Origin: Rhodohalobacter sp. 614A
Lineage (GTDB): Bacteria > Bacteroidota > Rhodothermia > Balneolales > Balneolaceae
Direction of reading: 5' to 3'
DNA: 64,000 bases
NCBI RefSeq assembly: GCF_021462415.1
Contig: NZ_JAKEDS010000001.1
Coordinates: 902,273-966,272 of the forward strand
The notes beneath the pieces are model-generated. The model did not search any database. It was not told the DNA's origin and worked only from the letters and a program-made list of their open reading frames with translations. Both the position numbers and the translations under genes were made by a program. How positions within the stretch are numbered: the stretch's first letter is position 1; each line of letters begins with the position of its first letter. Below, in pieces: positions 49,912 through 58,526 of the stretch.

Positions 49912-49985
49912 GGTCCGGTAGTTCAGTTGGTTAGAACGCCTGCCTGTCACGCAGGAGGTCGAGGGTTCGAGTCCCTTCCGGATCG
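49912..49985 (+). tRNA. tRNA-Asp (anticodon GTC)
   Basis: 74 bases folding as a complete tRNA. The acceptor stem GGTCCGG pairs with CCGGATC, with one G-U and discriminator G at 49985. Anticodon stem CCTGC/GCAGG holds a loop with GTC at 49946-49948, and the T arm has GGTTCGAGTCC. CCA is not encoded. Its 3' half is the attachment site of the element that follows, and further copies of that half lie at 54818 and 55211. The gene stays intact because the integrated sequence restores the 3' end. Confidence 0.97.
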
Positions 49986-49987
49986 CT
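49944..49987 (+). repeat. attL of the integrated element (tRNA-Asp 3' end)
   Basis: These 44 bases, from the anticodon loop to two bases beyond the tRNA, recur exactly at 54818-54861. That length of perfect identity at a tRNA 3' end, with an integrase gene next to the other copy, identifies the left attachment junction. Confidence 0.92.
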
Positions 49988-49994
49988 TTCCTAT

Positions 49995-50029
49995 AAGCCC
50001 TTAACTCCCATCGAGTTAGGGGCTTTTTT
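49995..50029 (+). terminator. Terminator supplied by the element to tRNA-Asp
   Basis: AAGCCC and TAACTC (49995-50007) pair with GAGTTA and GGGCTT (50013-50025), followed by T6. It differs from the native tRNA terminator, which insertion has moved beyond 54873, so the element brought a replacement. Confidence 0.88.
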
Positions 50030-50070
50030 GTTTCCTTAAAAACCTTCTTTTGTGTAACCTTCATTTTTTC

Positions 50071-50091
50071 GGGGACAACATAGGGACAACA
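50071..50091 (+). repeat. Left arm-type integrase repeats
   Basis: Two tandem copies of GGGACAACA, at 50072-50080 and 50083-50091, spaced 11 bases (one helical turn), about 85 bases inside attL. The same doublet occurs near the right end at 54676-54696 in the same orientation. Tyrosine integrases bind such arm sites. Confidence 0.7.
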
Positions 50092-50559
50092 AAAAATGAT
50101 CTGCCTCCCTTATTTTTGAAGATATTCACACTCACATTTTGAGAGCAAACTCCCCCCTTACTACAGGTTGACAGATAAAAACATTACTTAAGCGAACGGT
50201 TTCCAGTATAGGTGTATAAAAGGTGTCGAAGTAGGGGGGGAGCTATACACAAAGGAGGGGCTTCCTCTTGGTGCTGGTATTTAGAGGCCGGTGCGGTTGC
50301 GGCCTTGCCCCCTGGAATGAGTGAACGTGTACGCCGTAAGCAAGGCCAACAGGTCAACGCTCCCCCTCTGGCATTGCGAAGGCGAACTTTACATAATTTC
50401 TGTATATACGACAGCCGGACAAGGGGAAACAGTTAAGTGAGGAGAGCTGTTGTATAACATCAATTATGTAAAAGTGAGTGAATGAAAGGGGGCTGGAAGG
50501 CCTCTGACTGTCGATTATAGACAATGGAAAGCGCCGGTTTTACCGGCGCGTTACCTCCA
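50092..50559. other. Non-coding left end of the element, rich in secondary structure
   Basis: 468 bases with no convincing gene. Visible structure: GTGTATA (50212-50218) with TATACAC (50244-50250); GGCCTTGC (50301-50308) with GCAAGGCC (50340-50347); G-rich runs such as the seven Gs near 50234. GCGCCGGT/ACCGGCGC (50531-50549) acts as terminator for the minus-strand genes. It could be an origin of replication, a structured RNA or both. A 74-codon frame at 50212 overlaps these stems and looks spurious. Confidence 0.5.
50531..50551 (-). terminator. Terminator at the end of the element's gene block
   Basis: Perfect stem GCGCCGGT (50531-50538) with ACCGGCGC (50542-50549) over a 3-base loop, followed on the minus strand by TTTCC. 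It lies 9 bases after the stop of the last element gene. Confidence 0.65.
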
Positions 50560-50889
50560 TCAAATCTTAAGAACCTCAACTAAGCTGTGAAGGTCATCAA
50601 GTAGGTTCTGTTGTTTCTGCAAGGTTATAGGCTTCCTGGTAGCTCTTCTCTTTGCACGCTCCAGAAAATCCATAACTCCAAGAAATAAGGCTGTCTGGAA
50701 TCGGTCACTGGATACAAGTTTTTTATGAACGGTGGATAGTCTATCCAGATAGACCTCATCCTTTTCGGGATGCTCTTCTAATACTGAATGTATATTTTTC
50801 AATGTACGCTGGAGGTATTCGATTAATTCCAGATCCGTATTGAATTGAGACTTTTTGCTCTTCATAGGTACTGTTTTTGTTTCTGGCAT
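50560..50889 (-). CDS. Element protein of unknown function, last in the block
   Basis: 109 residues, mostly helical by eye (DLELIEYLQRTLKNIHSVLE, RFQTALFLGVMDFLERAKRR). Basic patch AKRRATRKPITLQKQQ near the C-terminus. No family recognised. It begins 11 bases after the preceding gene and is probably co-transcribed with it. Confidence 0.65.
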   Translation of the reverse strand: MPETKTVPMKSKKSQFNTDLELIEYLQRTLKNIHSVLEEHPEKDEVYLDRLSTVHKKLVSSDRFQTALFLGVMDFLERAKRRATRKPITLQKQQNLLDDLHSLVEVLKI

Positions 50890-50900
50890 GGTAGATGGAT

Positions 50901-51218
50901 TTAAGGTTTATCTGTATTAGTAAAAAATAGCCGGTGGACTTGATCGACTAAATTCTTTGCCTGTTGATAATCGGAACTGTGACACTTCCTCTGCATTTCT
51001 TCAAAGCGGTTGTCCAGCTCTTCCAGCATGGCTTTTAAATTGCGAAAGGCATGGTAGATACCGGCGCCGGAATAGTTGGCTTCGTTCTGTTGATTTGCTA
51101 TATCGAGGCCATGTATCAAGTCATCAAGTACAATGATCTGGCTGTCGATACTGTCTCTTAGATCAATGTTGCTGACATGCGAATATTCACCAATGGTTGT
51201 TCTGTTCTCATTACTCAT
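50901..51218 (-). CDS. Small helical element protein of unknown function
   Basis: 105 residues, acidic, predicted helical (SIDSQIIVLDDLIHGLDIAN, AFRNLKAMLEELDNRFEEMQ). One Cys, no metal motif. Similar in size and style to the next gene, so the two may be partners. A G-rich gap of 139 bases separates it from the gene upstream, with room for an internal promoter. Confidence 0.65.
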   Translation of the reverse strand: MSNENRTTIGEYSHVSNIDLRDSIDSQIIVLDDLIHGLDIANQQNEANYSGAGIYHAFRNLKAMLEELDNRFEEMQRKCHSSDYQQAKNLVDQVHRLFFTNTDKP

Positions 51219-51357
51219 GGTTTATTGTTATTTTGTGTTTGGGTTAAACTTTGAGGGGGTTACTGATTGATCTCGGGATACCCCCTCCCCCCTTGGGGGT
51301 ATATTCCTTTCAGAGAGAAAAAGACTCTTAAGGCATCGGTTTCACGGGTGTAACTTC

Positions 51358-51564
51358 TTAGAGATTTTGACCGCCCCCCTTTAGTGCTACTGCAAAGACG
51401 GTGGCGCCGGTAGCAAAGGTTCCCTTCACGGTGTCATGTATCGTTACCTGGTCTGCCTCTCCATCTGATAGCTCCTGTCTAATAGCTTGCTGGCTCGAAG
51501 CATAGAAGAGAGTCCGGCCGGTCATGGTGTGGATAACTTTAAAGCGTTTGCCCTGGTTACTCAT
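51358..51564 (-). CDS. Very small element protein of unknown function
   Basis: 68 residues, MSNQGKRFKVIHTMTGRTLF. Its start overlaps the end of the preceding gene by 8 bases, which supports it being translated. It ends in a Gly-rich segment (ALKGGGQNL). No motif recognised. Confidence 0.6.
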   Translation of the reverse strand: MSNQGKRFKVIHTMTGRTLFYASSQQAIRQELSDGEADQVTIHDTVKGTFATGATVFAVALKGGGQNL

Positions 51565-52312
51565 GGTTCACCTCCACATAATTCTCATAAAAGATTTCAG
51601 GCGGTTCTCCATGCTTTCCATCCAGCTCACTTGCGTACTCTTCAATATCAGATACAAGGGTATCGTAGCTAATACCTTTCTCCAATATCTTTTGAAATAT
51701 TCCCTCCTCTATATGATCGGGGTACTCGTGCTCATACCGGATTAAGCGCCGGTAATCATTAAAGAGTTTTTCAGCTTTATCGAAGTTGGAAGAGGGAGGC
51801 TTCTCCTGCTCTGTCTCCTGTTCTTCTTCCTCTTCCTGCTCTTTTTCCTTATGCCTTTGGGAGTCCCCTTTTAGAGGTCTCTTAGGGGTCTGTTCTGATT
51901 CCTTCCATTCAACAGCCTTTGTCATTACACGTGAATGATTCTGACAGAACCAATCGAATAGGTCATGTTCAATCATCAATTGAGTGTATGATCTGTGAGC
52001 ATTGTTATTGAATGGGTCAAGAGGCTTTCGGGGGCAATATTGATCCGGTACGAAGCTGTAAAGGAGTATTCGATCTACCTTCTGGAGTACCCTTTTTTCA
52101 TCTTCATTTATGTTCTGCAGGAAGCTCTTAAGATCAATCGAATCAATACCGATCTGATAACATGCAAAGTCAAGATCAATGATCCAGACTCCAATATTAT
52201 CACAGTTATCATTGATATACTCCCAAAAGAGTTTATGGCTCGGATGAAGAATCCTATACCAACGCTCCTGCCATCGGTTGGCATTATGAAACCGTTTATG
52301 TGACTGTTGCAT
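51557..52312 (-). CDS. Probable replication-related protein of the element
   Basis: 251 residues. The N-terminal half (WYRILHPSHKLFWEYINDN followed by CDNIGVWIIDLDFACYQIG) resembles winged-helix regions at the start of primosomal or replication proteins in Bacteroidota phages and plasmids. The middle (about 135-170) is a highly charged Glu/Gln/Lys linker, and the C-terminal 80 residues are helical. No helicase or primase motif is present, so initiation or loading is more likely than catalysis. The assignment is by resemblance and by its place in a small integrative element. Confidence 0.5.
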   Translation of the reverse strand: MQQSHKRFHNANRWQERWYRILHPSHKLFWEYINDNCDNIGVWIIDLDFACYQIGIDSIDLKSFLQNINEDEKRVLQKVDRILLYSFVPDQYCPRKPLDPFNNNAHRSYTQLMIEHDLFDWFCQNHSRVMTKAVEWKESEQTPKRPLKGDSQRHKEKEQEEEEEQETEQEKPPSSNFDKAEKLFNDYRRLIRYEHEYPDHIEEGIFQKILEKGISYDTLVSDIEEYASELDGKHGEPPEIFYENYVEVNHE

Positions 52313-52324
52313 CGGTACTCTCCC

Positions 52325-52558
52325 TTACTGGCTTTCAGAAGTTCCGGCGCGTTCATCCAGCATCTTTTCTACGTCTTTCAAACGATAGCCGACAGTCCTG
52401 GAAGAGAGTCGAATTTTAGGAGGGAGGTCGCCTCTCTTCTCCATTCTCCAAAGGGTCTGTTTAGATACGGAGAGTTTCTTGGCCAAATCTAACGGCCGGA
52501 TGATTTCGATACTGTCTGTTGAATTACTCATGGTTTCTACTGTTTGTTTGCGGTTCAC
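52325..52558 (-). CDS. AlpA/excisionase-like helix-turn-helix protein
   Basis: 77 residues, or 68 from an internal ATG at 52531. The core PLDLAKKLSVSKQTLWRMEK followed by GDLPPKIRLSSRTVGYRL is the MerR-like winged helix of AlpA and excisionase proteins (Phage_AlpA/HTH_17). In P4-type elements such proteins switch on integrase or act as directionality factor. The next gene starts 13 bases later. Confidence 0.82.
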   Translation of the reverse strand: MNRKQTVETMSNSTDSIEIIRPLDLAKKLSVSKQTLWRMEKRGDLPPKIRLSSRTVGYRLKDVEKMLDERAGTSESQ

Positions 52559-52639
52559 ATTGAATACAGTAGAAACCTAAAGAGGAGGGAGAACTAAGAA
52601 CAGGTAAGCAATTTCGTTTTATAGGTAATTACTTACCTA

Positions 52640-53416
52640 TTAATCTGGTCTATTGTTGTATGCATTTCTATAAAATTTTTCTTCATCATTGATTGGTACT
52701 CCCTTGTCAATGATCTCCTGAACAGAGTAACGCATTTCCTTTATCCAGCCTCTTAGCTTACTATAAGATTCAGGCCTTCCAAGTCCTGCATTTCTATATT
52801 CCCAAAATTTTTCATAGAACAGCTCCCTGTATATTGGCTTTCTCTTTTCAGTATCCGGCGCCGGTGCGTACTCCTCTTTTAGCTTTTCTAATTCACTTAA
52901 ATAGCCAACTAATTTGCGATAAGTAAAATCTACATTCGTTTGAATCTTTGATTTATTCTTAGATTTGTCATAAACATAGTAAGTAAGATTGATAACCGTG
53001 TACCCTCCCTTTTTATAGTTTTGATAGTACTCTTGAAACTTGTAATATTTTTTTGAGTCGATTCCTAAAACCGACATTTTCTCCATATCAAAACGGTCTT
53101 TAGTTACCTTATCAATTTCATTGATTCGGTTTTGAATATCTGAAAACTCTCTTTGATAAAAGACATTTTTCTTGTCCTCTTTCACTTTCCCTATTTTCTC
53201 AAAAAAGAATCTTATATGACCGTGAACAGCTACCTCTATAGCTTTATCTAAAATATCGTATTGAGCATCTACTATTTTTTGATACTCTTCATCCGGCAAT
53301 TGTCCCTCCATATTCAACACGAAAGGTTCCTGGCCTGTTGCTGGAGTTGTCCAGTGGTCTAATCCATCCAGCTTGCCATCTAACCAATCCTGAAAGGTAT
53401 ATGTATCCTCTCCCAT
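52640..53416 (-). CDS. Element protein of unknown function next to the integrase
   Basis: 258 residues from ATG 53416, immediately after the integrase stop; a longer frame would overlap the integrase by 47 bases. Charged and helical with Tyr-rich stretches (KKYYKFQEYYQNYKKGGYTV, TYRKLVGYLSELEKLKEEYA). No nuclease, ATPase or membrane motif is visible. Coding is more AT-rich than the integrase. In small integrative elements the slot beside the integrase often holds cargo, including phage-defence genes, but nothing in the sequence proves that. Confidence 0.7.
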   Translation of the reverse strand: MGEDTYTFQDWLDGKLDGLDHWTTPATGQEPFVLNMEGQLPDEEYQKIVDAQYDILDKAIEVAVHGHIRFFFEKIGKVKEDKKNVFYQREFSDIQNRINEIDKVTKDRFDMEKMSVLGIDSKKYYKFQEYYQNYKKGGYTVINLTYYVYDKSKNKSKIQTNVDFTYRKLVGYLSELEKLKEEYAPAPDTEKRKPIYRELFYEKFWEYRNAGLGRPESYSKLRGWIKEMRYSVQEIIDKGVPINDEEKFYRNAYNNRPD

Positions 53417-53417
53417 T

Positions 53418-54644
53418 TTAAGCCCCAATCTGAATGATCTTACCCTGTTCCTCTTCCTCTTCATCCAATATCATCTGCAACTTAGAAGCCCAACGGTTTA
53501 ACGCGGTTCGCTTCTCTTCCAGATAGTCGTACCGATCATAGATAGCCGTTACCTGGTTGTCTCCAGCAATGCCTTTATGATTGAGGAGTTTCCCTAATGT
53601 GGTACGATCTACCTTCAATCCGGCAAGGTAGGTGGCAACAGTCCGGCGTAAGTCGTGAGGCCGGAAGTCCTTCACTTCTGCAATTTCCCGGACATCGTCA
53701 ACGGGTCGTTTTATTCCTTCCAGTGGTGCGTTGTCATTAACAGGAGAGGCAAAAACATACTCTTTGGCGCCGGTTATAGGCTTCAGATTTTTAAGCACGT
53801 CAACGGCTAAATTTGATAACGGTACTTGATGTTCACGCTTTCCCTTTGCCAACTCTTTGGGAATAGTCCAGACTCCATTTTTAATGTTCTCCCATTTCAT
53901 GTGGCGCGTTTCCTTAGATCGTTGACCGGTTAACAGAAGCAGCTTTAAAACCGATTTAGCTGGCTCTTGTACCTCTTCAAAAGCTCCCCAAAGGCGCCGG
54001 ATCTCTTCCTCTTCATAGTACCTCTCCCTTTTGTTTTCTCCCCCTTCGTATTTTGTTGTATGGCTTACAGGATTGCTCTCTGTAACTGCTTTCTCCATTC
54101 CAATGGTGTAGATTCGAGACAGCAAAGAGCGAACGCGGTTTGCCATCGTCTTACTCCCTCTTTTATATGCAATGTTATCCAGAAATTTTATGATAAGGTG
54201 TCGATCAATCTCTTTGATTTCCTTATTACCAAAGACCGGTTTAATCTCATTGTCTATGATGCGTTCATACTCATCGGCTGTTTTCTCTCGAAGGGTTGGT
54301 AAATGGTACTGTTTGAATGCCTCCAGTAGTTCGGAAAACATTTTGCCTGGCTTCATACGCTCTTTTTTCTCCTGGAGGGGGTCAATCCCTTTATGGAGTT
54401 GGTTTGATATGCCTCTGGCTTCATCTCTGGCAATAGAGAGGCTCATATTCGGATAGGTGCCAATGGTGAAGCGTTTCACCTTATCGTTATACCGGTATCG
54501 GTACACAAAGGATTTATGACCGGTGGGAGTAACTCGAAGGGCAAGGCCGTTAACAACAGTGTCGTAAACTTCAATTCTCTTTTTTTCCGGCGCCGGATGG
54601 TGACGGACAAAGGAGTCTGTTAGCGAAAGTTTGCTATTAGACAT
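53418..54644 (-). CDS. int: Tyrosine-family site-specific integrase, P4-like
   Basis: 408 residues. The N-terminal DUF4102-type arm-binding domain has VVNGLALRVTPTGHKSFVYR and FTIGTYPNMSLSIARDEAR. A core-binding SAM-like domain covers about 110-200. The catalytic residues are Arg in LLTGQRSKETRHMKW, His-X-X-Arg in PHDLRRTVATYLAG, His in LNHKG and the nucleophile Tyr in AIYDRYDYLEEKR. It recombines the attP core with the tRNA-Asp 3' end. It sits at the attR side, 174 bases from the repeat, with arm-type sites just upstream of its start. Confidence 0.94.
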   Translation of the reverse strand: MSNSKLSLTDSFVRHHPAPEKKRIEVYDTVVNGLALRVTPTGHKSFVYRYRYNDKVKRFTIGTYPNMSLSIARDEARGISNQLHKGIDPLQEKKERMKPGKMFSELLEAFKQYHLPTLREKTADEYERIIDNEIKPVFGNKEIKEIDRHLIIKFLDNIAYKRGSKTMANRVRSLLSRIYTIGMEKAVTESNPVSHTTKYEGGENKRERYYEEEEIRRLWGAFEEVQEPAKSVLKLLLLTGQRSKETRHMKWENIKNGVWTIPKELAKGKREHQVPLSNLAVDVLKNLKPITGAKEYVFASPVNDNAPLEGIKRPVDDVREIAEVKDFRPHDLRRTVATYLAGLKVDRTTLGKLLNHKGIAGDNQVTAIYDRYDYLEEKRTALNRWASKLQMILDEEEEEQGKIIQIGA

Positions 54645-54675
54645 GGCTGGGTTGTTGGGTTAAACTTTTGATCTC

Positions 54676-54696
54676 GGGGACAACAGGGGGACAACA
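54676..54696 (+). repeat. Right arm-type integrase repeats
   Basis: GGGGACAACA at 54676-54685 and again at 54687-54696, the same doublet with the same 11-base period and orientation as at the left end. It lies about 120 bases from attR and directly upstream of the integrase gene, so integrase binding could also repress its own promoter. Confidence 0.7.
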
Positions 54697-54817
54697 AAAA
54701 TTGGAATGCCTCTGTCGTTTGCGTTACCTCAAGTTACTTCAAAACCCTATGATATACAACACTTTACGGAACTTTTTCGGGGGTGCTGAAACCTTTAGCT
54801 ATTTTTATAAAAACTGA

Positions 54818-54861
54818 CTGTCACGCAGGAGGTCGAGGGTTCGAGTCCCTTCCGGATCGCT
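54818..54861 (+). repeat. attR of the element (tRNA-Asp 3' fragment)
   Basis: Exact 44-base copy of the tRNA-Asp 3' part at 49944-49987. It lacks the 5' half of the tRNA, so it is a remnant and not a gene. It continues into the original downstream sequence with the native terminator. Confidence 0.92.
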
Positions 54862-54910
54862 CAAAAAAAAGCAAAGCTGCTCATATAAAAATGGGCAGCT
54901 TTTTTTGTTT
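54830..54910 (+). repeat. Direct repeat A: tRNA-Asp 3' end plus native terminator
   Basis: 81 bases containing the last 31 bases of tRNA homology, an A run, and the terminator AAAGCTGC (54873-54880) with GCAGCTTT (54895-54902) and T run. A second copy at 55232-55314 differs by one substitution and a 2-base insertion in the A/G run. The two copies bracket the GIY-YIG gene. Confidence 0.9.
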
Positions 54911-54934: not shown

Positions 54935-55207
54935 ATGCACTATTTATACATTATATATAGTGAGAAAAGGGGTAGCTACTATTCAGGTCAGACAAAGGAT
55001 GTTAAAAATAGATTATCCAAACATAACAGAGGTCACTCCCTCGCTACAAAAAATGGCATACCTTGGGTTCTTAGAAAAGTTGTAGAATTTGAAACCAAAT
55101 CTGAAGCAATTAAAGCTGAAAATTGGCTTAAAAGAATGAAAAGTAAAAAAGTTATTGAACGAGTTATTCGAGGTAAAATTGATATGCGAGAGGTCATTGC
55201 CGATTAG
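54935..55207 (+). CDS. Small GIY-YIG endonuclease between tRNA-derived repeats
   Basis: 90 residues from ATG 54935 (MHYLYIIYSEKRGSYYSGQT). A TTG at 54905 lies inside the terminator of repeat A and is rejected. The whole protein is one GIY-YIG nuclease domain: IIYS and YYSGQ stand for the GIY and YIG strands, Arg in VKNRLSKHN and Glu in AIKAENWLKRMKS complete the site, as in the UvrC-like single-domain group. The coding DNA is very AT-rich. It has its own copy of the tRNA-Asp 3' end directly downstream and another directly upstream, with no other gene, so it looks like a single-gene cassette. Confidence 0.9.
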   Translation: MHYLYIIYSEKRGSYYSGQTKDVKNRLSKHNRGHSLATKNGIPWVLRKVVEFETKSEAIKAENWLKRMKSKKVIERVIRGKIDMREVIAD

Positions 55208-55210
55208 AAA

Positions 55211-55262
55211 GCCTGTCCCGACCCCTCGGGAAGGTCGAGGGGTCGAGTCCCTTCCGGATCGC
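55211..55262 (+). repeat. Altered tRNA-Asp 3' half downstream of the GIY-YIG gene
   Basis: GCCTGTC, a changed 15-base stretch, then GGTCGAGG, GTCGAGTCCC and TTCCGGATCGCT, aligning with the tRNA-Asp anticodon-to-3' segment. The altered part makes a perfect hairpin, GACCCCTCG (55220-55228) with CGAGGGGTC (55236-55244). The anticodon stem is destroyed, so this is not a functional tRNA. Confidence 0.82.
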
Positions 55263-55314
55263 TCAAAAAAAAAGGCAAAGCTGCTCATATAAAAATGGGC
55301 AGCTTTTTTTGTTT
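55232..55314 (+). repeat. Direct repeat B: tRNA-Asp 3' end plus terminator
   Basis: Second copy of the 54830-54910 repeat. The terminator AAAGCTGC (55277-55284) with GCAGCTTT (55299-55306) has T runs on both strands and also serves the convergent CHAP-like gene that ends at 55321. This copy is therefore probably the one at the ancestral position. Confidence 0.9.
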
Positions 55315-55320
55315 TGAGTT

Positions 55321-55986
55321 CTATGCATTCAGCAATTCAAGCATATGCTCTCGGGTTGGCGCATCAAAGATTCCTGAAATTTCCAGTTCAAAGTTGGTTG
55401 CCTGGAATTGTTTGAGGGCTCCTTCGGTTTTGGGGCCAAAAATACCATCGGATGTTCCTGCGTTAAATTGAAGCAATTTAAGTGCGTTTTGAAGATTTAC
55501 GACATCCGTTCCGGTATCGCCTTTCTTTAAATCCTTATCTTTTAACTCAAACTTATTATCTGGCTGGAGCCGCCTAAAGGAGAGGACTCTTTCAGCAGGG
55601 TAGGCAGAGATGGAGACTGAATTATTTTGATTTCCGCCTAAGGTATAGACTCTCGATTTATCGCTGGAATATCCAAAGAAAATACCAACATGGCCTTGAT
55701 GAGAGTTCGGATCGCCGCGCCAGTATACAACGATATCACCCGGCTCGGGATTTTCTACCGGTAAACCTACCGTCAGCCACGAACGCGCAGCTGCTGAGCC
55801 TGACCGTTTAACGCCGCATTTCATCGCTACCCAATTCATGAATACGCTACACCAAGGGGTTTCGTCATCGTCAATCCATGAAATTCCGATTTCATTTGAA
55901 TACTGAAGTATTCTTTTATTATGCTGGCTTCCGCTTATTTCAGATATACCTAACTCTTTGGTGGCTACTTGTATGATTTTATCCAT
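55321..55986 (-). CDS. CHAP-like peptidoglycan hydrolase with peptidoglycan-binding domain
   Basis: 221 residues, no signal peptide. The N-terminal 145 residues resemble the TIGR02594/CHAP cysteine peptidase group: Cys46 in TPWCSVFMNW, His in HQGHVGIFFGY, and an Asn in TLGGNQNNSVSI. The C-terminal 65 residues are a PG_binding_1 domain (LKKGDTGTDVVNLQNALKLL, SDGIFGPKTEGALKQFQ). It should cut peptide bonds in the cell wall. Lack of a signal suggests export by another route or a phage origin. It marks the ancestral right flank of the tRNA-Asp locus. Confidence 0.85.
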   Translation of the reverse strand: MDKIIQVATKELGISEISGSQHNKRILQYSNEIGISWIDDDETPWCSVFMNWVAMKCGVKRSGSAAARSWLTVGLPVENPEPGDIVVYWRGDPNSHQGHVGIFFGYSSDKSRVYTLGGNQNNSVSISAYPAERVLSFRRLQPDNKFELKDKDLKKGDTGTDVVNLQNALKLLQFNAGTSDGIFGPKTEGALKQFQATNFELEISGIFDAPTREHMLELLNA

Positions 55987-56084
55987 TTCTCTCGGGGCTT
56001 TTTGGTGTTAAAGGATTTTAATACTTCTCTCCTGTTGATAATAACTTAGAAATCAGGATGATCTACAACTACTTTTTAAAATAT

Positions 56085-58526
56085 TTACTTGGCCAGCAGC
56101 ATCTTTTCAACCCGAACCCCCTGGTTTGTGACCATCCTGTAAAAATACACGCCTGAAGCTAAACCGGATGCATTAAAAGGAATTTCGTAGTATCCGATAT
56201 TGAACTCTTCATCGAGAATCGTTTGAACAAGTGAGCCCATCGAATTATAGATATCCAGCCTCACACGGGATCGTTGTGGAATTACAATAGGGATTGTGGT
56301 TTGATGGTTGTACGGATTCGGATAATTATTGCCGAGCGTTAACTCGCCATCAGAAAAGAGAAACTCAATTTCGATGTCTTCTGAGAGGTTCAGGCCAGCG
56401 GCAAAAACGTTGTACTGAACAACTTCTTCTGTGTTGCCGGTAATTGAAAACGTTGCCTGGCCTTCGCTGTCGGTTGTTGCTTCATCGGGTGAAATTTGGG
56501 ATGAACCATTATCCTGTTCAATTTGAACCTCAATTCCTTCAAAGGGTTCTCCATTGCTGTTTTCAACCCGTACGATTATTAAACTTTCCTGGATGCCCGT
56601 GGCTAAAACTCTGTCTCTGGAAACCTCTACGCCAGAATTTTGTAAGCTAATATCAATTGTGGATGCTGTTTCAATATTTGAATGATTGCTCTGAGTGGTT
56701 TCCACGCCGGACCGAACACGATAGTAGTAGTCCGTACCGGGTGTAAGATTGGTTATTGTAAAAGATGTTACATCGCCAACATCTTTGTTTTCAAATCCGG
56801 AGAGAATGGATGTGAAATCCGGGTTGAGTGAAACATCCAAAAAATAACGCTCGGCAGCTGAAACATTTGTCCAACGGGCAGTGAATGACACGGCATCTAC
56901 TTGTATCGGCTCCAAGGCACTTGGGCTTGTGAGAGCGGGAGTGCTGAATGATCGCTGATTTCCAAACGAAGTTCCAACTGAGTTTGTAGCATAGGCCCTG
57001 ACATAATAGTCTCTGTTTTGTTCAAGATTTGTTATTTGGATTTGAAACGGGCCAAGGCCATCTCCGGCAACTGCGCATTCGTCAGCGAATGAGGGATTTG
57101 GTTCCGTATCCCAGCAGAATCCATTTTCGAAGATTGAGCTGCCGCCATCATCCGTTGAATGACCATTCAGTTGTGCAAGGGAATAAGAGATATTGGTAAC
57201 CGGATTTGTTGTAACGGAGGGCAGATCAAATTCCGTTGCGGTTGTTCTGTACTGTTCAACCACGTGCTGTATTTCTCTCATGCTTCGGGCATTGTCGGCA
57301 GGAGAAAATTCCCCCGAGTATGAACCAGTAGGAACGCCTTCGTAATTGATGTCCGGATTTGAAAATACAAGAACTTGGCTGGATCCATCGAGATATGTCA
57401 TAACAGATGCGTATGAAATTCCATCATTTCCCGTCCATCTCCAGCCTGTTGAGTAGGGAAAGATTCCCCGCCGGTTCGTATTGTTAGCGGCATTTTGATT
57501 TTGGTTTCGACTATGAGCATTGCCGAAGTTATGCCCCATTTCATGGCCGTGTGTTCTTCCGTTCGCCTGTTGTACGCGTGTAATTGAAAATGCATATTGT
57601 GGTAAGCCACTCTGGGCGGTAATCACCCATGCAATGCCGCCTGTATCTTCCGTTTCAGAGAATAGAGCAACAAGATCGGCTCCATACTGATCTCTTAGCT
57701 GATGAATCTCATCCATATGACCTGCGGTTTCTTCTCCCCAGGGATTAAATAAAGCGGAGGCGGTTAATCGCCGCAAATCCAATTCAGAATCTCCTGTCTC
57801 GGTGTATTGTGTGCGATGAGTATGGACCAGGCGAAATTCGAGATCCAGGTTTGAATTATCAGCAGAAACCTGCGCGACAGCCATAGCCTGATTGATAATG
57901 TTTTGAATGCCACTTGAATTTGTTGCCGCCCAATTTTCTGCGTTTGGAGTGTAAACAATCATGACGTCAATAATTGATGTTTCATGATCATGAGAAACCT
58001 GTGGCTGAGAGTTGTTTTTGTTTGAGTGGGGATTTTCATTTGTTACAACGAGTTGATCATCATGATTGCAAGCAAGCTCATCAGATTGATGCGGATCTTT
58101 TTCAACAAGTATATGTTGACTTTGGAATGAGTCGTACCTGATCTCTAAATAAGTATGATCATTCAGAATATTAACCGTAGATAAAGCCTGGCCGGTTGAG
58201 GGGGAGTAAGAAAAGATGAATGAGTTAAGTTGGTTATTGTTTGTGTGGCCGACAGCAGACCATCCTCCGTTTGGTGAGTGAATAATCTTTTGAATTGCAA
58301 CGTTGTAGAGTTGATCGTCTGGTCCCGGAATGGAAATCTCTTGAACTTCATTTTCTCTTAATGCTGAGAGAACGGATTGATTGAGGTGGATTGACGAGGC
58401 GTTTAAATCAGACGGTTGTTTTGCATTCCAGTTTGTAGTTTCAAGACCAGTCTTCTCAAACAAAAGAGGGGAATCATTTTGTGCGTGTATTGAGGCCGGC
58501 AGGAATAATGCCAACACAATAACCAA
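56085..58526 (-). CDS. Large secreted metalloprotease with FN3-like modules and C-terminal sorting domain
   Basis: 813 residues from the TTG at 58526, but the frame stays open upstream and an ATT at 58556 gives a better signal peptide. The catalytic motif is HEMGHNFGNAH (about 328-338), a metzincin (reprolysin-like) zinc site. A pro-region precedes it. Fibronectin-type modules follow (about 440-625: LEQNRDYYVRAYATNSVG, TNLTPGTDYYYRVRSGVE), then a Big-1-like module (SNGEPFEGIEVQIEQDNG). The last 85 residues (NYPNPYNHQTTIPIVI, ASGLASGVYFYRM) are a Type-9-style sorting domain. It is likely secreted and surface-attached. Confidence 0.9.
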   Translation of the reverse strand: MVIVLALFLPASIHAQNDSPLLFEKTGLETTNWNAKQPSDLNASSIHLNQSVLSALRENEVQEISIPGPDDQLYNVAIQKIIHSPNGGWSAVGHTNNNQLNSFIFSYSPSTGQALSTVNILNDHTYLEIRYDSFQSQHILVEKDPHQSDELACNHDDQLVVTNENPHSNKNNSQPQVSHDHETSIIDVMIVYTPNAENWAATNSSGIQNIINQAMAVAQVSADNSNLDLEFRLVHTHRTQYTETGDSELDLRRLTASALFNPWGEETAGHMDEIHQLRDQYGADLVALFSETEDTGGIAWVITAQSGLPQYAFSITRVQQANGRTHGHEMGHNFGNAHSRNQNQNAANNTNRRGIFPYSTGWRWTGNDGISYASVMTYLDGSSQVLVFSNPDINYEGVPTGSYSGEFSPADNARSMREIQHVVEQYRTTATEFDLPSVTTNPVTNISYSLAQLNGHSTDDGGSSIFENGFCWDTEPNPSFADECAVAGDGLGPFQIQITNLEQNRDYYVRAYATNSVGTSFGNQRSFSTPALTSPSALEPIQVDAVSFTARWTNVSAAERYFLDVSLNPDFTSILSGFENKDVGDVTSFTITNLTPGTDYYYRVRSGVETTQSNHSNIETASTIDISLQNSGVEVSRDRVLATGIQESLIIVRVENSNGEPFEGIEVQIEQDNGSSQISPDEATTDSEGQATFSITGNTEEVVQYNVFAAGLNLSEDIEIEFLFSDGELTLGNNYPNPYNHQTTIPIVIPQRSRVRLDIYNSMGSLVQTILDEEFNIGYYEIPFNASGLASGVYFYRMVTNQGVRVEKMLLAK

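Follow-up and report, generated by a model that had tools for sequence, protein, structure and literature searches.

A small GIY-YIG nuclease gene beside the sole tRNA-Asp gene of Rhodohalobacter sp. 614A was found to belong to a widespread, apparently mobile family of cassettes located at tRNA genes of Bacteroidota. The window analysed is the whole stretch of 64,000 nucleotides (contig NZ_JAKEDS010000001.1 of assembly GCF_021462415.1, positions 902,273 to 966,272 of the forward strand), and all coordinates without another source refer to it. We read the gene as a free-standing homing-type endonuclease cassette living on tRNA genes, joined later at the same tRNA-Asp by an island resembling integrative and mobilizable elements (IMEs), and give this reading a probability of about 0.68. 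The two elements differ in kind, one being a tyrosine-integrase island and the other a tRNA-specific GIY-YIG cassette. The parts of the locus that concern the cassette are as follows.

49912..49986, plus strand: intact tRNA-Asp(gtc), from the tRNA gene call
54818..54861, plus strand: right attachment site (attR), the original 3' part of tRNA-Asp, displaced (repeat search)
54863..54910, plus strand: terminator-like hairpin of the tRNA, copy 1 (repeat search)
54935..55207, plus strand: GIY-YIG nuclease gene, 90 aa, bare nuclease domain (Pfam GIY-YIG, E=4.2e-14)
55205..55263, plus strand: pseudo-tRNA-Asp, D-loop to 3' end, anticodon arm replaced (repeat search, third copy)
55216..55231, plus strand: 16-bp palindrome TCCCGACCCCTCGGGA at the position of the anticodon arm; 4.69 Mb contain 16 palindromes of this kind
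55267..55314, plus strand: terminator-like hairpin, copy 2, 98% identical to 54863-54910 (repeat search)

GIY-YIG genes beside tRNA genes

The protein was placed among the GIY-YIG nucleases by its Pfam match and its conserved catalytic residues. Y4, Y15, G17, R25, H29 and E61 are invariant in 16 members, and we take these positions to have catalytic roles. The AlphaFold2 (AF2) model had a predicted local distance difference test score (pLDDT) of 96, and Foldseek placed 1zg2 first (E=1.5e-3), with Slx1 at 0.04 and the I-TevI domain at 0.41. The closest solved structures are those of UPF0213 proteins (best sequence match E=5e-14), namely BH0048 (PDB 1zg2) and EF2693; like BH0048, the protein is a bare GIY-YIG domain. 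UPF0213 is presumably the YhbQ/YazA group; we know of no tRNA linkage of these proteins, such linkage being a feature of the cassettes. A weak PHROG match pointed to homing endonucleases (phrog_314, E=3.5e-4, residues 1-64), with no further domain. A phage origin of the cassette was considered and rejected, the matches in the phage collection being six unannotated Listeria/Staphylococcus records (E 3e-4 to 5e-4) with 38-44% identity over 73-79% of the query.

Six GIY-YIG genes of the cassette kind were found in the source genome. Four of them lie within 600 bp of a tRNA gene (Gly, Val and, in tandem, two at Ser), and the copy in the window abuts attR. The sixth interrupts an apparent transposase gene of the tyrosine type associated with repetitive extragenic palindromes (REP) on contig C3 (about 737.1-738.0 kb; L006:993-1946). 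The downstream part of that transposase-like gene matched NF047646 at positions 58-146 of 146 (E=3e-10, under the curated cut-off), the upstream part gave no match and was read by eye, and palindromic repeats surround the GIY-YIG gene.

Of 73 GIY-YIG places in 40 genomes of the genus and order, 55 lay within 600 bp of a tRNA gene, all 55 on the same strand as the tRNA and most commonly 50-80 bp past its 3' end. The family profile matched in 242 of 394 genomes sampled across the phylum at E<=1e-8, a count which may include copies without tRNA linkage. The phylum table of 92 matches repeats some genus loci and contains near-duplicates, and the linkage figures for the phylum rest on samples of 22 loci and 20 places. 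At 18 of the 22 loci the retrieved stretch contained a tRNA, at distances of up to about 1.5 kb; two of the other four stood at contig ends, and two (L118, L123) had been displaced by integrase elements. The 20 further places were picked from the lower part of the matches listed, a list limited to the best ones, and not from every row, and 17 were within 600 bp of a tRNA, 17 of 17 on its strand. As a control, none of 25 MnmG loci had a tRNA within up to 1.5 kb. The tRNA types carrying a cassette included Asp, Asn, Gly, Val, Ala, Leu, Ser, Pro, Arg, Cys, Met, Gln and Glu, as well as initiator Met, which was assigned by reading the sequence. An Rfam scan of ten loci returned tRNA and rRNA only.

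Judged from the protein tree, clades stay for the most part with a single isoacceptor or isotype of tRNA, which is an association and not a measured specificity. With unlabelled rows and rows with stops left out, and with one row kept per phylum locus, 26 changes were needed for 21 labels (minimum 20), and shuffled labels needed at least 57. Members from the source order and from other families of the phylum come together in a Leu clade (starred) and in a Ser clade with weaker support. The tree of the genus and order, built without 4 of the 73 rows that were under 60 aa, gave 10 changes when the 17 unlabelled rows were omitted and 22 when they were kept (shuffled mean 46.8). The GIY-YIG copies away from tRNAs formed two small clades of their own, whose placement is unsure.

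On the MnmG host tree, occupancy was no more clustered than shuffled labels for the Asp, Gly, Val, initiator Met, Ser, Asn and Pro types; it was set by hand, genomes with no MnmG match are missing, four were left out for Asp, and incomplete genomes may hide copies. No GIY-YIG match at all was present in 14 of the 40 genomes, and in 2 of 25 within the genus. Arrays of units with identical proteins were also found, five at tRNA-Leu with a period of 450 bp and five at tRNA-Asp with a period of 315 bp. The five Leu copies differed by up to six synonymous and zero non-synonymous changes, and the ratio of non-synonymous to synonymous substitution rates (dN/dS) between two species was 0.12 for the Gly type. 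Four of the 73 frames hold stops and others are truncated, so that both the sporadic distribution and the decayed copies known as a trait of homing genes were found, in the form of scattered occupancy and broken frames.

These patterns bear on the possibility that the cassette is a vertically inherited, tRNA-linked host gene with a housekeeping role at tRNA genes or branched DNA, as a UPF0213 protein might have, and that the pseudo-tRNAs described below arose by tandem duplication and decay. The structural neighbours BH0048 and EF2693 favor such a gene, as does the similarity among Asp-type cassettes, which roughly tracks host relatedness. We nevertheless consider it unlikely, given the scatter of occupancy, which for seven tRNA types matches that of shuffled labels, the genomes without any match, the arrays of up to five copies and the frames with stops.

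Pseudo-tRNAs and palindromes

Of 53 loci that could be tested, 36 had a damaged copy of the same tRNA on the far side of the GIY-YIG gene (p<0.01, 300 shuffles), two of 55 loci having been left out for their short far side. The reverse-complement control reached a score of 22 or more at 5 of 53, and the phylum sample contained a far-side pseudo-tRNA in 16 of 17. At most loci the intact tRNA is upstream of the gene; several Ser, Pro and Arg loci are reversed, with the intact tRNA downstream and the damaged one upstream. The stop codon plus 9 nt was tRNA-derived at 16 of 46 loci (control 0 of 46), and in the window the stop codon TAG (55205-55207) itself belongs to the tRNA-derived sequence. The stretch duplicated there includes the terminator-like hairpin, and the unit is therefore GIY-YIG gene, pseudo-tRNA and terminator. 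Movement of the cassette by the integrase of the neighbouring element was rejected on the same ground, and also because several Ser, Pro and Arg loci have the damaged copy first and the intact tRNA after it.

In the damaged copies a palindrome often replaces the anticodon arm and/or the T arm. Palindromes with a stem of at least 6 bp, placed between tRNA 9-mers in the right order, were found in 37 of 120 far-side regions, or at 29 loci, since 8 of the 37 rows are further copies of one array; the reversed-tRNA control gave 0 of 120. They vary by tRNA type (TCCCGA...TCGGGA, TCCGCCTGAGGCGGA, TCACGC...GCGTGA and others). In the 4.69 Mb of the source genome the pattern TCCCGA-N2-9-TCGGGA occurs at 16 sites, three of them within pseudo-tRNAs, and a control pattern at none, a number by which a high-copy genome-wide repeat was ruled out for this type, the one counted. 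Pseudo-copies stand beside three of the four GIY-YIG-bearing tRNAs of that genome and beside one of its 38 other tRNAs (Ile, in an rRNA operon), matches that were neighbouring intact tRNAs having been set aside by eye.

The ratio of three in four to one in 38 speaks both against a vertically inherited host gene, as Ile alone among the tRNAs without a GIY-YIG neighbour has a pseudo-copy, and against a second explanation, in which the palindrome is the mobile part, REP-like and moved by other enzymes, and the GIY-YIG genes are passengers in tRNA duplications. That explanation draws on the TCCCGA-N-TCGGGA sites away from tRNAs, on the source-genome GIY-YIG gene that interrupts an apparent REP-associated tyrosine transposase gene, and on the existence of GIY-free pseudo-tRNA units. 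However, passengers need not follow the isoacceptor as the GIY-YIG clades do, and purifying selection on the GIY-YIG frames was seen in most pairs compared, which leaves a palindrome-driven origin improbable.

Damaged tRNA copies were also noted in other settings. In the C10 rRNA operon spacer of the source genome (L109 position 995/L204), a pseudo-tRNA-Ile with the palindrome TCCCGAGGAGTCGGGA in its anticodon arm precedes the intact tRNA-Ile by 38 bp. Downstream of tRNA-Asp, G003 (L098) and G006 (L083) carry tandem GIY-free units of pseudo-tRNA and terminator that resemble miniature inverted-repeat transposable elements (MITEs); in G006 the GIY-YIG gene is preceded by two such units, repeating about every 178 bp. 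Fragments of pseudo-tRNA-Asp with palindrome remnants also occur in several genomes just upstream of the intact tRNA (L075, L078, L079, L081, L084 and others).

The integrase island at tRNA-Asp

Between the intact tRNA and the cassette lies the integrase element, with the following features, open reading frames (ORFs) among them.

49944..49987, plus strand: left attachment site (attL), 44 bp of the tRNA-Asp 3' part, identical to attR (repeat search)
50069..50107, plus strand: left-end repeat of the element, 85% like 54674-54712, with two GGGACAAC-like units in each
50560..50889, minus strand: ORF of 109 aa without convincing family match (Pfam/NCBIfam/PHROGs)
50901..51218, minus strand: ORF of 105 aa without convincing family match (Pfam/NCBIfam/PHROGs)
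51358..51564, minus strand: ORF of 68 aa without convincing family match (Pfam/NCBIfam/PHROGs)
51557..52312, minus strand: orf251, 251 aa
52325..52558, minus strand: AlpA/excisionase-like helix-turn-helix (HTH) protein, 77 aa (AlpA E=9e-6; phrog_66 excisionase E=5.5e-11)
52640..53464, minus strand: ORF of 274 aa without convincing family match (Pfam/NCBIfam/PHROGs)
53418..54644, minus strand: tyrosine integrase, 408 aa, with Arm-DNA-bind_3 domain (Phage_integrase E=2e-21; phrog_1 E=4e-66)
54674..54712, plus strand: right-end repeat of the element, partner of 50069-50107 (repeat search)

An earlier note on this DNA had described two mobile elements nested at one tRNA gene, the cassette having come first and the integrase element second, and this description held up. 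The 44-bp repeat of the tRNA-Asp 3' end that bounds the integrase element is exact (49944-49987 = 54818-54861), and directly past attR, where the note had placed the GIY-YIG cassette, a hairpin, an ORF, a degraded tRNA copy and a second hairpin were found. Tracing the cassette as displaced is likewise borne out, since 4.87 kb of integrase element now separate it from tRNA-Asp. When the outer flanks were joined, a tRNA-Asp was restored and called by ARAGORN; the intact copy is the only tRNA-Asp among the 42 tRNA genes that ARAGORN called in stretches covering all Rfam tRNA hits of the genome.

The order of events rests on relatives as well as on geometry. The sister pair of the source genome, in an MnmG tree covering 25 members of the genus, is G005 and G015. 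Both carry the cassette right after tRNA-Asp, 59 and 77 bp 3' of it, with no integrase element between, which supports an earlier arrival of the cassette. The rejoined core of the window matched them at 301 of 403 and 295 of 403 aligned bases. The locus is orthologous, as tblastn with the glutathione-peroxidase-like gene upstream of the tRNA gave matches at 19 of 23 further tRNA-Asp loci in the genus, at one of these on the opposite side. The gene block does not look like a fixed, vertically inherited one lacking the repeat: relatives of the integrase at E<=1e-30 occur in only 5 of 28 genomes, the source genome included, and the best of the others has 42% identity.

All seven ORFs between the 44-bp copies are on the minus strand, the integrase being the one adjoining attR, and four or five of them match nothing. 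The repeats at 50069-50107 and 54674-54712 are probably arm-type integrase sites. Neither structural nor conjugation genes were recognised among the seven with Pfam, NCBIfam and PHROGs, in agreement with the earlier note, and PADLOC gave one weak mad1 match, to the AlpA-like protein. Within the genus, orf251 has a relative in G009 only (34% identity), and in the family in 9 of 91 other genomes; three of seven such loci examined also hold relatives of the integrase and the AlpA-like protein. Its relative in G242, a genome of another genus, weakly matches a phage replisome-organizer family (E=4e-4), and from this match orf251 is probably a replication protein.

At the tRNA-Asp of G242 the tRNA and the matching attR are about 35.7 kb apart, and two tandem Asp cassettes lie past attR. 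The island between them carries a MobA/VirD2-type relaxase, ParA and an AlpA relative, and at its attR end an integrase 49.6% identical to that of the window; type I restriction genes and a pair of UvrD and OLD-TOPRIM genes are among its defence genes. The pair resembles Gabija. Among the 14 other ORFs of at least 220 aa in this island, no phage structural gene was found with Pfam. A Schlafen/AlbA protein, SRAP and UmuC-like genes and a reverse-transcriptase-domain protein were also noted in it (L257/L260). An integrase element of about 4.3 kb that includes an HNH/NUMOD4 gene occupies tRNA-Ala of G187, with a cassette past the second attachment site (att) copy. The nesting of islands over cassettes thus recurs, at tRNA-Asp of G242 and at tRNA-Ala of G187.

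The earlier note had likened the 4.87-kb element to a satellite, a label that we have not kept. A phage satellite dependent on a helper phage would agree with its small size, its integrase, AlpA-like regulator and probable replication protein, and the lack of recognised structural and conjugation genes. However, no packaging, capsid-interference or helper-linked gene was found among the seven ORFs with Pfam, NCBIfam and PHROGs, although small unknown ORFs could hide one; the related G242 island at the same tRNA-Asp site is IME-like, bearing a relaxase and restriction and other defence genes; and relatives of orf251, integrase and AlpA-like protein recur together at three other places. A satellite has therefore only a small probability. 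Like IMEs at tRNA genes, the element has a tyrosine integrase with an arm-binding domain, an AlpA-like regulator and the tRNA 3' end as att, so that integrase and att sites, as expected for an IME, are both present; unlike them it is small, and no relaxase was recognised in it by Pfam, whereas the G242 relative has one. On the strength of that relative and the recurrent nesting, the element seems closer to IME-like islands than to phage satellites. As it holds no recognised relaxase, it may be a reduced form or be moved by a helper.

A candidate integrase element at tRNA-Asp of G012, guessed from a tRNA-adjacent repeat, was rejected, as no match to the window integrase at E<=0.01 was found in 12.5 kb and five ORFs there contained no integrase by Pfam. 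Downstream of the cassette, the region 55321-58526 of the window encodes a CHAP and peptidoglycan-binding protein (Pfam) and an 813-aa ORF that by eye resembles a secreted metalloprotease. Neither the CHAP protein nor the 813-aa ORF had a tblastn match at the 23 other tRNA-Asp loci, where the stretches reach at most about 1.5 kb past the tRNA.

Proposed mechanism and its weight

From the arrangement of intact tRNA, nuclease gene and damaged copy we infer cutting, copying by repair and protection by palindromes as the steps by which the cassette could spread. On a chromosome lacking the cassette, the nuclease would cut the corresponding tRNA gene, and the cassette would be copied into the cut locus during repair with the donor as template, the intact tRNA copy keeping the cell alive. 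The palindrome would protect the pseudo-copy from being cut, make it unlike a tRNA and lower the chance that recombination removes the cassette. In this reading, the tyrosine integrase of the IME-like island later integrated at the same tRNA-Asp of the window and rebuilt the 3' end of the tRNA from its own attP, displacing the old 3' end and the cassette by 4.87 kb.

Taken by analogy, the cassette may best be read as a bacterial, chromosomal counterpart of the tRNA-associated SegB of phages. According to the published account, SegB is a GIY-YIG free-standing homing endonuclease of T-even phages which cuts within tRNA genes, is associated in phages with tRNAs of many isotypes and drives amplification of tandem tRNA and segB; its reported motif is RAWTSGAAC (PMC13096335). 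By our own derivation, this motif read on the other strand is GTTCSAWTY, the tRNA T-loop consensus, and the T arm, which holds this loop, is an arm often replaced by the cassette palindromes. The two systems share, as far as that account goes, a nuclease beside tRNA genes of many isotypes, tandem arrays, and a nuclease-gene 3' end similar to tRNA (PMC13096335). The likeness is one of description, and the cassettes differ from SegB as described there in their place on bacterial chromosomes, in the bare 90-aa domain, in the isoacceptor-linked clades, and in the position of the gene between an intact tRNA and a pseudo-tRNA that often bears a palindrome. Searching titles and abstract openings, with subscription journals and preprints largely outside, we found no description of tRNA-linked GIY-YIG cassettes in bacterial chromosomes.

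Two further known cases are comparable in part. In Allomyces mitochondria, a mobile endonuclease gene in atp6 carries a replacement gene end, and its insertion, as at the cassette loci, leaves the gene intact and its former end displaced; the target in that case is protein-coding and mitochondrial, and no palindrome replacement is known there. Rickettsia palindromic elements are small palindromes within tRNA genes. Unlike the cassette palindromes, which replace arms of damaged tRNA copies beside a nuclease, they are inserted in genes kept in use.

The isoacceptor-specific clades could also be expected of a tRNA-linked toxin or defence module, in which the nuclease attacks phage tRNA genes, or tRNAs, with the pseudo-tRNA acting as decoy or as regulatory RNA. 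Phages do carry tRNA genes, and a pseudo-tRNA co-transcribed with the mRNA would be possible. A defence system was rejected, however, as the GIY-YIG protein had no PADLOC match; no antitoxin-like partner gene was seen, and patchy single-gene cassettes with decay look selfish, which makes such a module very improbable.

Several observations weigh against the homing-type cassette itself. No cleavage or transfer of a cassette was observed in this analysis of sequences. The nuclease domain is bare, without the DNA-binding part that I-TevI and SegB carry beyond theirs. Eighteen of the 73 places have no tRNA within 600 bp, some being at contig ends and some away from tRNAs; 17 of 53 far sides showed no significant pseudo-tRNA, nor does the Val cassette of the source genome have one; and conversely the pseudo-tRNA-Ile with its palindrome in the rRNA operon has no GIY-YIG gene, and the pseudo-tRNA arrays of G003 are GIY-free. 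The Ser-gct members are not a clade (4 changes for 4 rows). The similarity of Asp cassettes roughly follows host relatedness within the genus, so that part of the pattern could be explained by vertical inheritance combined with frequent loss. In three same-tRNA arrays with differing copies, the second copies gave dN/dS values of 0.65, 0.57 and 0.18, and hence some array copies look decayed, but not all. Finally, the occupied genomes G000, G005 and G021 have the same intact tRNA-Asp sequence as G002, without any Asp-type match, and as G040, without one in the 230 bp past the tRNA. The donor's own tRNA should therefore be cuttable, unless the target includes flanking sequence or the activity of the enzyme is restrained.

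We give even odds to a broader proposal, that Bacteroidota harbor phylum-wide natural gene drives targeting essential tRNA genes, in which isoacceptor-specific GIY-YIG nucleases rebuild the cut tRNA, park a hairpin-replaced copy beside it and stack in arrays. If true, how a cell survives a nuclease aimed at the only copy of a tRNA gene would become a sharp question. The cassettes would explain tRNA pseudogenes and repeats around the tRNAs of Bacteroidota and would provide a natural, isoacceptor-resolved set of site-specific nucleases. A sizeable part of the phylum would then bear selfish cassettes aimed at tRNA genes, and tRNA-targeting homing would be extended from phages to chromosomes.

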